Source: Nannobrachium achirus
Taxonomy: Eukaryota > Chordata > Actinopteri > Myctophiformes > Myctophidae
DNA length: 64,000 bases
Reading direction: 5' to 3'
Assembly (NCBI GenBank): GCA_963921795.1
Contig: OY997643.1
Coordinates: forward strand, 14,502,043-14,566,042
The stretch's first letter is position 1, and the number at the start of each line of letters is the position of its first letter. The notes beneath the pieces are model-generated. The model searched no databases. It was not told the origin of the DNA and saw only the letters and a list, made by a program, of their open reading frames with translations. This document shows positions 32,901 to 50,639 of this stretch, one piece after another. The position numbers and the translations under genes are program-made.

Positions 32901-35900
32901 TAGAACCCACAACCTCCGTGGTGGTGGGCAGGGACTTTACCACTGCGCCACCCGAGCGCCTCGGCTACTTTTATGAAGTAAATAAATAAGAGGATGTTAT
33001 TATCGCTTTAATTGAAATGTGCTCATATCATTTCCACTGTTCTCATTAGATTGGAATTCAAACATTAAATAATGAAAACGACCAAAACACGCTGCAGCAG
33101 TGTTTTTTTTTCTTGTTTTTTTGCTCCACTTTATGACAGTAAAATTAAGAACGGTTCTGTCAATAGATGAACGGTCTGTACGACCACATGCTACTTGTTT
33201 AAAAATTTTGGTTCGCTCAACAAAGTTCTGTGTGAACGCTAACTAGACCATAATATGCTAAATGTAACAATGTAAACATTTGGTCCTTGAGCCATGATAC
33301 ATTTGCTGTTAGTTTTTTCAGCCCTGGATCTAGTTTCTCTATTTCTATGTTTACAACTGGTGCAAATGAGGGACGCACTTCAGCCTCTCACATCGTAATG
33401 GTGCCACCCGGTCGGCTGTATATTTTATGTGACTCTATGAGAGATACGCCTGTCTTTTACTGAAGATCGCGGTTGGAAATACTGGATGGATAGTTTTCTA
33501 TAAAATCGCAAAGGTAAGATACTTTGATGGCAGTGGGCAGACTATAAAAATCCTTAAATGAGTCTTCTACAGTAAAAATAAAAACACTGTGATGCTATCA
33601 CTACTGTTTGAACCATTAATGTGTAATATGAAGTGAGGGTCTCTCTCTCTCTCTCTCTCTCTCTCTCTCTCTCTCTCTCTCTCTCTCTCTCTCCCCTATC
33701 TGTCTATCTGTCTGTCTCTCTCTGTTACTGTGTGTGCACATACGTGTGTTTCATTTTGAATGAATGAATGAATAAAAGGAGTATATGAGTGAATGGTGAT
33801 CAAACATGTTGAAATTCACATGACTACCAACCTGGCTTTTGTGAAGTTCCTCACAGCTGGGATCAGTCTATGTCGCCCCAACTGGTCTGTGTTATATTTG
33901 GCCAGGTCAAACATCTCCAGAACCTTCTCTGACATCAGCAGCATGGAAGCCAGAGCTGAACACTGGGGTGCAGAGAGTACCATCCCGTTGTACTCTGACT
34001 CCAGGTACTGTTGGATCCCTTGACTTACTGAGGGGTCCTTCATCTCCATCAGACAGTGGAAGATGTTGATACATCTGTCAGGAGAGGCACGGAGATTCTT
34101 CCTCTCCTTCAGGTTGTTGATGACCTTCTGGATCTCCTCAGGACAGTTGCCTCTCTGACCCAAAAGTCCTCCTAACATACGCTGGTTGGACTCGAGTGAG
34201 AGACCATGAAGGAAGCGGGTAAAGAGGTCCAGGTTTCCACTCTCACTCTCCAAGTTTTTATTCATAGCAGCCCTCAGGAAGTCAGACAAGGAACCGTCAC
34301 CACTGTCTCCCAGGAATGTCTCCACAACCACCATGTTCCATTGTGTGAAACTATGGAACAGGAAGACTGCAGCCATAAACTCCTGGATGCTCAGATGAAC
34401 AAAGCAGTAGACCGTTTGGAGGAAGAACACATCGTCTTTTCTGAAGAACGTTGTGCAAAAGCCTGAGTACAGAGAGATGTTGTTCACATCCAGACCACTC
34501 TCTTCCAGGTCTTTCTGGTAGAACATGATGTTGCCTTTTTGGAGTTGGATTAACGCCAGTCTGCCCAGCTTCAGAAGAAGTTCTCCTGCATCCTTCACGA
34601 TCTTCTCTTTGTCTGCTTCGTCTACTGCAGGATCCTTCATCGTCTCCCGCTGGGTCTCTCCCATCACGAAGTAGCAGTACAACTCAACCAGGGTTTTGGG
34701 CAGCTTGTCTCTCATATCCATGTTCTTCACAACAGTAGCAAGGATCCAACAGAAGACGGGAATTTCACACATCGCATGGAGAATGGGTGTTTCCTTGATG
34801 TGTGAGTAGATAGAGTTGGCCTGGTTGTCATCGCTGAACGTCTTCATGAAGAACTCCTTCTTCTGGTCATCTCTGATGAACCCTCGCACTTCTGTCATCT
34901 TGTTGACATACTTCTTAGGGATCTGTTGGGCTGCTGCAGGTCGTGAGGTTATCCAGAGCTGAGCAGAGGGGAGCAGCTTCCCCTTGATGAGGTTTACTAG
35001 AAGAACTTCCACTGGGTATGATTGGGAAATGTGCATTTCGCCGAAATCTTTAATGAAATTGAGACAAATATAATTCTCATCATAACCGTCCAGAACAAAC
35101 AGAACTTTGAAGGAGCTGACCTTGTATTTCTGCAATTCATTGAGGATGTAATTGAGAACATCTTCCTCAATGAATGTGGTTTCCTCGATGCATTTGTGAA
35201 TTAGCTGAGCCAAACTAAAGCTTTGTCCCTTGAGCAGATTTAACTGGCGGAACTTTAACGGGAACACAAGGTGTGGATTTTGGGGGAAACATTTATTGGC
35301 CCAATCAAAGATAAATTTGTGTATGAGGAATGTTTTTCCAATTCCTGCACAGCCATCGGTCAGTACCGTTCTTCTGTTTCTTCCAGAAGGGTCTATAAAG
35401 ATTTCACCAATTTGGATTTCTTTTTCCTTTCCTGACGTATTCTTCTCCAGCTGCCTGACCTCATGATGCCTGTGGATGTCTGTGACATTGATGTCTGCAT
35501 TGTAGAGCATGATGAAGATGTCTTTAAACACGACCTCAGGCTCTATGCCCAATGTTACACCTAGATATGTCTCGTACATCATGTGTTGAAGCTGGTCTTC
35601 ATAGTAAGTAATGAGACGCCCTGATGGTTTCACCAACAGACCTGTAGTGAACAAAGCAATTCCATGATTAACAGCCAGAGTTAATCTGAGTACAGTATAT
35701 ACAGTATAATATAGAAATAAAAAACCCTAACATACAGTACATGTACATACAGCAGAGTGACTCACTGCCTCAGCCTGATGGCCTCAGAAGTCTAATATCT
35801 CCCCCAGGCCATAGGGATATCCCTTTGATCTAGTGGTTAAGATATTTGGCCTTAGCTTGGGGGAACCAGGGTTTGAATCCTGTGTGTGTGTGTGTGTGTG

Positions 35901-38900
35901 TGTGTGTGTGTGTGTGTGTGTGTGTGTGTGTGTGCGTGCGTGCGTGCGTGCGTGCGTGCGTGCGTGCGTGCGTGCGTGCGTGCGTGCGTGCGTATATACA
36001 CACACACACACACACACACACACACACACACACACACACACACACACACACACACACACACACACACACACATAGGCGGTTCTTGATAGAGTCGTAATTG
36101 TAGATTTTACTCATGGTTGCTTGCTAAATAGCAGATCTACAAGCTCACAACGCAAGATCAACGTGAGCTTGTAGATCTACTATTTTCAGAGAGCTACACC
36201 CGAGTGTAACCAAACTAGTCCCTCCCTAACATTTTAGTCTAGTTTAATTTGTTGACAAAATTGTCATTATATTTAGTCTTTGTTTTAGTCATTATGTAGT
36301 CTGTCAGTGAAAAAAGGTAGTCGACGAACATTTTTAATCATAGTTTTAGTCGACAAAATTAACACACATTTTAGCCAGTAAATAGGTTACATCGTTTTTC
36401 AATATTAATATCTGCCATATTTTATAAGGAGAAATGTGATATTAAATCATGTGTGTCACACAGCAAGGAAGCTGGATGCCATAATGGCAAACCCCTCCCT
36501 CCCCCTCTACAAGGATATAGTGGACATCTGAGCAGGAGAGGAAACAGTAGATTCACCTCCCTGGGTGGACTTGGCATGTCCTTTGTGCAGGATTTACAAT
36601 GAGACACACATTGGTCGCTCTGCCAGGTAAACTGTCATATAACTTGGAATAAAAGATGTACCAAAACCTATAATTCACTTTGATAGTTATTGTATTGATT
36701 GCACTGTGGACACTGTCACTTTTCTTTGCATTGCACTGATTGTACTGGTTCCATGGTTTGACACTGACTCTTTTTGTTACATGATAACCAGGTGTTATTG
36801 ATGTTTTTCTGCATAGTGCAGGATAGTTTATGCAGTTGTTCTTTACTGATGCTGCTTCTTATTGTTATGTCTGACCTTTGTATTGCTGTATACATTCCTT
36901 ACTTTGTATTTATAACTTTGTAACTCTAACTGATGTGCTGCCTCTAGGGCCGAGAGTCTAGGCAACAAAAAAATCCTAAAAATCGTATCATATTTAGACA
37001 ACTAAAACTAGTTGGCCGTTCGCGGGTGTCCAGGAGTGGACGTTAATTACCGGGAGACTCCCAGAACTTCCGGAAGAGGTGGGATGTCTGCCCCAGCCAC
37101 TTCATCATTTCATCTCTCCCTGCATCCATAACCTCTTTGGCCTTCCTCCACCTACCCCATCCACCCCTCATCTATCTGTCTATCTCGTTATCTGTCTATC
37201 TGTCTATGTGTCCCTCATCTCTCCTCTGCACATGACCAAACCATCTCAACCTCGCCTCTATTGTTTTATCCCAAAACCTTCTAACCTATGCTGATCCTCT
37301 AATGTTGTCATTTTATGCATGATGCGCACGTAGCACACATACACACACGTGCGCACGCACAGTCACACACACTCACACCATTTAAAGTACGGTAATTCGA
37401 CTTTAAACAGCACTCACCTGAGACAGGTGCCGGTTTTCCTTTGGCTGGCTGAGCGTTCCTGTTGTGAAAAGCAAATATGTTTTGTATCGTTAGTAACTAG
37501 ACTGTGCAGTCTGTGTACAGTAAATCCACCATCCTACACAAATCCTACTTTACACTATAGGACCAAACAATGGGCCTCATTCACCAATAAGTTCTTAACT
37601 TTCTTCTTAACTTGTTCTTAAATTTCTTCCTAAGTGAATTCCTAAGTGAAGTCCAGTCACATTCATGAAACGTTCTTAGGAAGGCAAAATTGTTCTTAAC
37701 TATGTTCTTATCATGATGAATGCCAATCCTCGTAACTTGAAGGGGTGTGCCAGGTAATCCTAGTTATCATAGGTAGACGCTCCACATATCCCAATTTGCA
37801 TCCCTATTACCATAGGGAGCCACCCACAAATCCCCATATAAGGCATGACTTCATGACACTCTCTGCAGTCACACCTGTGTTTGATTGCTGTACACAGAAC
37901 TAACAAGAAATCACTCAGAAATAAAGTTGAGAGAATGAAGTCAAGAATAGCCTAACTAAAGTGTAAAGATGGTGGAACACTAGACTCAAACATTAAAAAA
38001 AAAACTTCTGTGGAGGTACTTCTGAAGTGAACAGCTAATTATTTGTATATAATGAATGAATGTATTTTATTATTTCACTATAGACATCAATGTAAATTTG
38101 CTGAAATTAGAATGTTATCCTTATTTCATGTTTGGAAATAGCATTAGTTGTGGATATAAAACATTGTATTACTGAAAGCTGGTAGGTGGGTATAGTGGGG
38201 CTTTAAGTTAGCAGCTGCTTAGTATGTAATGGGGTGGAAGTAGGGGTAGGGAGCTGGGTTATGGGGGGAGTGGGGGGGGGCGTAGGGGGTGAGTATGGGG
38301 CTTGGGCTTCAACTCAACCGGCTCATTTTGGGTTGGGATGCAATTTTCAGACCTGTTGAAAACTAGTCAGTAAACCAGTGGTTCTAAACATTTTCATGTC
38401 AAGGACCCCCAAATTAACATGCATTCTGTAGACTGCCCTGCCTGGGAAGATTTTTCAAGATTTATCAAAGTGTTTAAAAAATATTCGATCTACAAGCTCA
38501 AAATGGGCTGTAATGGTAATGCGTTCGGTTGTGAGCTTGTAGATCGGCTATTTTCAAAAAAATAAAAAATAAACAAAACTGGGTTAAAATGGTAAAACTC
38601 TTTTTTGTTTTACTGTGTGGACCCCCTGGAACTTCCTAAAGGACCCCTGGGGGTCCCCAAACCACACTTTGAGAACCACTGCTCTAAAGATCTGATAAAA
38701 ATATTTTGATTATTTAAATCATATTATTATACAACTGTAGAATTGATGAAACATAAAGAATACATTATTTTAGCACAGCATTTTACACTTAAGAACTAAA
38801 AGGCCACCCTAAGAGTGCTCTACAGTGTGCGTAGATTATTTCTTAACATAAGAACAAATCACAGCTAAGAAAACATTGGTGTATGCCAAATCTTCTTAAA

Positions 38901-50633: not shown

Positions 50634-50639
50634 GGAATC
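50363..50639 (-). CDS. PYRIN-domain exon (start codon at 50633)
   Basis: The exon follows an acceptor (CTGTTTGTAACAG) six bases before the ATG and ends at donor AAAG|GTAGGT, leaving phase 1. It encodes about 90 residues of a death-fold [23 protein letters not shown], then a lysine-rich helix 2-3 region with the typical PIPKRSLKK segment, then an [14 protein letters not shown] helix and a closing [18 protein letters not shown] helix. These match the usual PYD hydrophobic pattern (LxxTLxxLxxxELxxFK, and the PIP motif). PYDs self-associate into filaments with ASC or other PYD proteins. The frame runs on past the donor through intronic low-complexity TG/CA repeats, which is a read-through artefact. 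Confidence 0.85.

Follow-up and report, generated by a model that had tools for sequence, protein, structure and literature searches.

Described receptors and the gene in the window

The usual picture of an inflammasome is a relay of three parts: sensor, ASC and caspase. ASC (PYCARD), which has the order PYD-linker-CARD, normally acts in trans between an NLR sensor and a caspase. CARD-NACHT-LRR receptors, such as NOD1 and the NLRC3 of some fish, have an N-terminal CARD ahead of NACHT, but to our knowledge no PYD precedes that CARD and it is not of the ASC type. We analyzed a stretch of 64,000 nucleotides (the window) on contig C6 (OY997643.1) of the 1.66-Gb genome of Nannobrachium achirus, whose minus strand carries a gene that most likely represents a genuine receptor family of the order PYD-CARD-NACHT-LRR-B30.2. 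Fish NLRP3/NLRC3-like receptors are described, in the available parts of PMC4852459 and PMC11192531, with the exon layout PYD-FISNA-NACHT-LRR-B30.2. The available text of PMC9978379 gives the order PYD-NACHT-LRR-FIIND-CARD for human NLRP1 and, for the NLRC3-type proteins of fish, eight domain orders, in none of which PYD and CARD occur together. For the round goby, group 6 NLR-C receptors with a C-terminal CARD and 20 PYD-CARD (ASC) combinations are reported in the sections of PMC6988351 at hand.

The gene in the window resembles each of these systems in part. With ASC it shares the order PYD-linker-CARD and an ASC-type CARD; unlike in ASC, the CARD exon is predicted to be spliced onward to a NACHT receptor, and the PYD is probably not of the ASC type. 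With the fish NLR-C and NLR-B30.2 genes it has in common a separate PYD exon, one large NACHT exon, LRR exons, a B30.2 exon and variable N-terminal repeat exons. However, an ASC-type CARD and a joining exon stand between its PYD and NACHT, and the FISNA-like start of its NACHT exon falls under the Pfam cut-off (16.5 versus 28.1 bits). Like human NLRP1, it would hold PYD and CARD in a single NLR chain, but its CARD is N-terminal rather than C-terminal after FIIND, and FIIND is not among the 7 Pfam families matched by the predicted protein. The round goby also has expanded ASC-like and NLR genes and a CARD linked to an NLR; there, however, the CARD is C-terminal, and the portion of the goby paper seen describes no PYD-CARD-NACHT order. 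We regard the gene as an NLR whose N-terminal architecture is new, rather than as an ASC. The first-pass annotation, made from the sequence of the window, knew of no described receptor with this order, and we found no description of a PYD-CARD-NACHT receptor in the open-licence literature either.

Exons for PYD, linker, CARD, a 41-nt joining piece, NACHT, LRR, a connector and B30.2 follow one another on the minus strand from 50633 to 26453 and form one open frame of 12 exons and 1197 amino acids without a stop; splicing, here and below, is a prediction from sequence and conservation. All junctions of this model are GT-AG, and the phases are 1/1 across the linkers, 2 behind the CARD, 1 into the NACHT exon and 2 on both flanks of the LRR exons. 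Three extra linker exons of 69 nt also fit the phase-1/1 scheme and would bring the protein to 1266 amino acids if all were included. Exon order, common strand, consensus splice sites and the junction phases through the linker, after the CARD and into NACHT are all as the first-pass annotation had read them. It had placed the gene at 33832..50639; the upper part of this extent stands, but at the lower end the gene continues to 26453, and three more linker exons come on top. The joined 1197-amino-acid protein matches PYRIN, CARD (residues 200-279), NACHT, NOD2_WH, NLRC4_HD2, PRY and SPRY above the Pfam cut-offs, and NACHT carries the Walker A motif GCAGIGKT. The LRR_6 match is weak (18.0 bits versus a cut-off of 23.4), with two LRR exons in the window.

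A protein search with residues 1-300 returned 0 matches among 7990 candidates, a result that is little informative because the low-complexity linker probably swamped the query; with the CARD alone, 0 matches were obtained among 64 candidates in proteins of 0.55-1.75 times the 1197-amino-acid length. The NACHT search matched 7977 proteins, fish proteins included, and 120 of them were listed as relatives. Among these 120, a CARD profile matched 4, C-terminally in the three alignments inspected. Precomputed Pfam assignments put a CARD in 6 of the 120, each time with PF13553 (which we take to be FIIND) and in none with PYRIN alongside. The highest identity among the 120 was 49% over most of the stretch, with a few proteins at 51-54% over part of it; hence the 120 hold no close relative of the species, and absence of the architecture from other fish is not implied.

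Genomic copies and the splice donor after the CARD exon

A fused receptor and an ASC-like gene with an NLR behind it would show the same exon order, and we therefore compared copies within the same genome. The multigene family that they form, absent from the first-pass annotation, is the strongest evidence for the fused receptor. Copies B and C lie on the same strand as the window gene (copy A) and upstream of it, at C6 14.59-14.63 and 14.69-14.71 Mb, and each has PYD, linker, CARD, short exon, NACHT, LRR and B30.2. In copy B the CARD exon and the short exon are identical to those of copy A, the short exon starts 244 nt past the CARD, and further LRR exons occur beyond the two of the window. 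The short exon of copy C has 29 nt, 12 fewer than in the window, so that the frame is kept. At C6:11.82 Mb we read PYD, linkers, CARD, the 41-nt exon and the start of NACHT; the same exon chain recurs at C5:41.67 Mb, with identities of 64% for CARD and 70% for NACHT. A copy on C13 has a linker of the same kind as well as CARD, 41-nt exon and NACHT, and on C272 PYD, CARD and short exon are present shortly before the contig ends.

Genome-wide, 141 matches to the CARD exon, strong and weak together, were obtained (18 on C14). For the NACHT exon 81 matches are listed, from a search that scored 73 of 591 candidates. By coordinates, the order PYD-CARD-NACHT with PYD at most 12 kb from CARD is found at six places (the window, B, C, C6:11.82, C6:12.13 and C373), from a list of 150 of 151 PYD matches for which 150 of 254 candidates were scored. 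When 98 CARD places were set against 73 NACHT places (43 of the 141 CARD rows, mostly the weakest, and 8 of the 81 NACHT rows, second fragments, were left out), 22 pairs of neighbours lay within 30 kb, and the CARD was upstream on the same strand in 22 of 22. Random shifts of these places gave a mean of 0.06 pairs and a maximum of 3, a crude estimate in which all contigs are treated as 70 Mb. Several of the 22 pairs are recent tandem copies and so do not amount to 22 independent events. Since the exon order recurs in genome copies, its occurrence in the window is not chance, and the earlier proposal that one predicted gene joins PYD, linker and CARD in frame to a NACHT-LRR-B30.2 receptor is supported.

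The CARD exon of the window ends in GATGAGCT, followed by GTAAGA; read unspliced, it gives Asp-Glu-Leu-stop (CTG-TAA), near the end of ASC. From the higher-ranking matches we read the ends of 63 CARD exons (those of A, B and C, 20 others and 40 more), leaving 72 of the 141 unread, and six controls besides. Donors stand at 61 of the 63 ends (57 GTAAGT, 3 GTAAGA, 1 GTGAGT), including 38 of the 40 further ones; 21 of these donor-bearing ends lie ahead of a listed NACHT, and the other 40 are without a listed NACHT partner (16 on C14). Across 59 distinct rows, GT at +1/+2 never varies, 57 rows have G at +5 and 55 have T at +6, and conservation from +10 to +35 behind the CARD averages ∼0.5 bit. TAG occurs at 0 of the 63 ends and TGA at 2, once within GTGAGT and once in a donor-less copy (C4:46.57). 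On the whole, the conservation after the CARD looks like a splice-donor pattern, not a stop-codon pattern.

As controls served six CARD places without a listed NACHT, putatively stand-alone, which we picked from coordinates before looking at how they end. A listed PYD lies upstream at 4 of the 6 and behind the CARD at C359 and C3. All six end in a stop without GTAAGT: K-stop (three), N..stop (two) or RSGK-stop (one). The three K-stop controls differ from the fused exons by one base (CTG-AAGTAAT versus CTG-T-AAGTAAT), and the two also share some similarity in the DNA beyond this point. Because these three could use a weak GT two bases further on, the other three controls are the clearer negatives.

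A short joining exon, in frame and with a homologous acceptor, was found at 12 of 23 distinct loci. Its length is 29, 41, 50 or 53 nt, always 2 modulo 3, and it is open in the phase set by the CARD. The first automatic scan had kept only lengths of 2 modulo 3; upon its unfiltered repetition, the pyrimidine score of the homologous acceptor was strictly best in 7 of the 12, tied in 4 and beaten in 1. The intron between CARD and short exon measures 116 nt in C13 and 108 nt in C5, and neither AATAAA nor ATTAAA is present in five of the seven such introns checked (B, C, C13, C5 and C21:2.39). In the C13 and C5 introns, this short and without a poly(A) signal, one gene could hardly end and the promoter of another still fit. 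We are highly confident that the window carries a single gene belonging to a multicopy NLR family of this fish, with PYD, flexible linker, ASC-type CARD, NACHT, LRR and B30.2, its structure and splicing being predicted.

Several observations weigh against a fused receptor. Two of the 63 CARD ends have no donor (GTGTTA at C24:31.93; GTGAAA, reading TGA, at C4:46.57), and an unspliced CARD exon stops at once, which makes a short ASC-like product possible. Conservation is also fairly high at +8 and +9 of the intron (1.4 and 1.3 bits), and shared descent thus explains part of the donor likeness. The stand-alone status of the controls is itself indirect, given an incomplete NACHT list and the PYDs behind the CARD at C359 and C3. 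No joining exon was found within ∼700 nt of the CARD at 10 of the 23 loci (one more, C8:4.69, was unscanned) or in the 340 nt behind the CARD at 40 further loci. AATAAA is present in the CARD-to-short-exon introns of copy D and C272, and the PYD exon at C5:41.67 Mb has no ATG at the usual position. The ratio of non-synonymous to synonymous substitution rates (dN/dS), at 0.43-0.94 for the CARD, is not low; it is 0.55-0.79 for NACHT. For the PYD it reaches 2.7, 1.2 and 1.5 in copy A versus B, C and D, on few changes, and 0.6-0.8 in A and D versus C5. By these sequence comparisons, the pattern is that of a fast-changing immune family or of relaxed constraint, not of strong purifying selection.

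Domain relationships, proposed action and competing readings

The first-pass annotation had called the N-terminal module ASC-like. This holds for the CARD, whose best solved match is 5gpq, an ASC CARD fused to MBP (E 3.9e-15; presumably zebrafish ASC), followed by 7crw, NLR family protein 1 (E 2.7e-8); by sequence, the CARD of the window is ASC-type. It does not extend to the PYD: NLRP9, POP1 and pyrin are its best solved matches, and the ASC PYD is absent from its 20 matches up to E 10. This test discriminates mildly, as a stand-alone control PYD also had NLRP10, 9 and 3 ahead and reached the ASC PYD weakly, at a best E of 0.02. The four fused C6 copies group in a clade of their own when 14 PYDs are placed in a tree (L002, L006, L007 and L055, with no PYD at the threshold used, are not part of the tree). 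The window PYD is probably not of the ASC type; an ASC origin of the whole PYD-CARD module, considered on the same tree and solved matches, is unlikely for the PYD. At least one of three PYD positions, which we take to match the type I assembly-surface residues D48, D51 and D54 in human ASC, is Asp in 10 of 10 other PYDs; the four C6 copies have none and the C5 copy has one. The end of the NACHT exon and its Walker A motif come nearest, by eye, to the group 3 pattern in PMC6988351, whose available part lists group 3 without a PYD.

As a whole, a fused receptor family with the following action is the explanation that we favor, with somewhat more confidence than doubt. Sensing through LRR or B30.2 would release NACHT to oligomerise, and oligomerisation would cluster many PYDs and CARDs. 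The CARD cluster could then act directly on a CARD-bearing caspase by nucleating CARD filaments, and no separate ASC would be needed; for this ASC-independent step, doubt slightly outweighs confidence. The first-pass annotation had likewise proposed that the receptor might recruit a CARD caspase without separate ASC, or that it might join ASC specks through both death folds. The PYD might recruit extra ASC or another PYD partner, or regulate assembly. The linker of repeated phase-1/1 exons, the length of which varies among copies, would hold the two death folds apart. Were the CARD donor skipped, an ASC-like protein could arise from the same gene. CARD caspases probably exist in this genome, as six caspase domains are preceded on their own strand, at a distance of 3-11 kb, by a CARD 39-46% identical to that of the window (from 17 of 141 CARD and 36 of 125 caspase matches, selected by hand). 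No PYD was found within 30 kb of a caspase among the 10 PYD places compared, a number too small to speak against PYD caspases.

More tentatively, we propose a large, lineage-expanded class of single-chain PYD-CARD-NACHT-LRR-B30.2 sensors, with dozens of CARD exons and a donor one base from an ASC-type stop, that could engage PYD partners and CARD caspases directly and may release a free adaptor when the donor is skipped. A receptor family that unites sensor and ASC would make it possible to ask if ASC must exist as a separate speck-forming amplifier or is a mere bridge, would show how an adaptor stop codon and a splice donor can interconvert, and would provide a natural single-chain tool for studies of PYD and CARD assembly.

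Two neighboring genes could produce a similar arrangement, an ASC-like PYD-linker-CARD gene ending at the TAA and, behind it, an independent NLR gene that begins with a first exon of its own. CTG-TAA is indeed a stop if unspliced, the exon end ..LLDEL is close to the end of ASC, stop-ending CARD genes near a PYD exist in this genome, and the copy at C4:46.57 reads TGA without a donor. However, +5 G and +6 T, which lie outside any reading frame, are as conserved as the supposed stop, TAG is missing from the 63 ends, and the one other TGA sits within a kept GTGAGT. Together with the CARD-to-short-exon introns of only 108 nt (C5) and 116 nt (C13) and the different ends of the control CARD exons, this donor conservation leads us to hold two genes very unlikely. 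One locus with two products, the full receptor through the CARD donor and a free ASC-like PYD-linker-CARD when the donor is unused, seems to us a real if minor possibility. A retained phase-2 GTAAG donor means an immediate stop, GTAAG stands at 60 of the 63 ends, and in three of the six controls the single-base difference suggests that stop and donor states may interconvert easily. But any GTAAG donor in that phase brings an in-frame stop with it, and five of the seven introns checked have neither AATAAA nor ATTAAA (D and C272 have AATAAA).

The fused receptor might also be a brake instead of a trigger, drawing ASC or a caspase into unproductive complexes. Four of the five fused PYDs are without Asp at the three positions at which all ten other PYDs have at least one, and the available part of PMC10253273 reports other NLRC3-like fish proteins as negative regulators; the ASC-type CARD is kept, though, and NACHT retains a predicted Walker A, and we consider such a role improbable. 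It is still harder to see the copies as decaying family members, in frame merely through recent duplication, even if the PYD dN/dS above 1 in recent copies, the C5 PYD without its usual ATG and the identical CARD exons of A and B would fit. Stops are absent from 7 of 7 CARD and 7 of 7 NACHT exons compared, at identities down to 57-58%, and donor and short exon are retained across those distances, so that decay appears quite unlikely.

Exon coordinates, linkers and smaller features

Table 1. Predicted exons of the PYD-CARD-NACHT-LRR-B30.2 gene, in order of transcription
Feature	Position in window	Strand	Basis
PYD exon, first coding, ATG start, donor phase 1	50363..50633	-	Pfam PYRIN 59.1 bits; splice site, frame
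Linker L1a, 78 nt, phase 1/1	49673..49750	-	splice sites, frame; counterparts in copies C and D
Linker L2, 69 nt, phase 1/1	45122..45190	-	phase-1/1 fit
Linker L1b, 78 nt, phase 1/1	44041..44118	-	splice sites, frame
Linker L2 repeat, 69 nt, phase 1/1	43217..43285	-	phase-1/1 fit
Linker L2 repeat, 69 nt, phase 1/1	41638..41706	-	phase-1/1 fit
Linker L1c, 78 nt, phase 1/1	40974..41051	-	splice sites, frame
Linker L3, 87 nt, phase 1/1	40008..40094	-	splice sites, frame; identical in copy B
CARD exon, ASC-type, end CT before GTAAGA	39107..39347	-	Pfam CARD 45.1 bits; 5gpq match
Joining exon, 41 nt, phase 2 in, 1 out	37418..37458	-	frame, splice sites; also present at 11 further loci
Large exon: weak FISNA-like start, NACHT, winged helix, HD2	33832..35641	-	NACHT 106.7, NLRC4_HD2 95, NOD2_WH 59.1 bits
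LRR exon 1	32347..32520	-	LRR_6 18.0 bits (below cut-off 23.4); phase 2/2
LRR exon 2	31704..31862	-	frame, splice sites; counterparts 89-94% in copy B, 97.5% in copy C
Connector exon, 47 nt	30755..30801	-	splice sites, frame
B30.2 (PRY-SPRY) exon with stop	26453..26982	-	PRY 50.3, SPRY 41.0 bits; acceptor, end of open reading frame

Linkers L1 and L2 occur three times each within window positions 49750-40974. The linker set differs by copy: L3 was the only one found in copy B, and L1, L2 and L3 were found in copy C (beyond the window, linker exons were read in copies B, C, D, C5 and C13). The intron between the CARD and the short exon (39106-37459) spans 1.6 kb in the window versus 244 nt in copy B; its extra DNA starts with GGGCCCGATTCACC and ends with GGTGAATGAGGCCC, and these inverted ends resemble those of a small DNA transposon.

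Elsewhere in the window, ten other open reading frames that we picked gave no Pfam match. Two open stretches on the plus strand (40279-40668 and 54781-55068), without a Pfam match, have the appearance of reverse transcriptase remnants of the long interspersed nuclear element (LINE) type. At 21886-21956 on the plus strand there is an Rfam tRNA match of 33 bits, perhaps the head of a short interspersed nuclear element (SINE).

Within copy B, the final 265 nt of the NACHT exon recur in two stretches at C6:14599969-14605503 (82-84% identity), and this copy may hold pieces of further NLR genes. PYD and CARD exons lie close together at C3:2708190, C359:115181 and C17:42840178, with the CARD ahead of the PYD at C3 and C359; these sites are perhaps arrays of stand-alone ASC-like genes. 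Several PYD matches fall at C15:5430677-5499874, two to three per open frame of up to 332 amino acids, which suggests multi-PYD exons or proteins.

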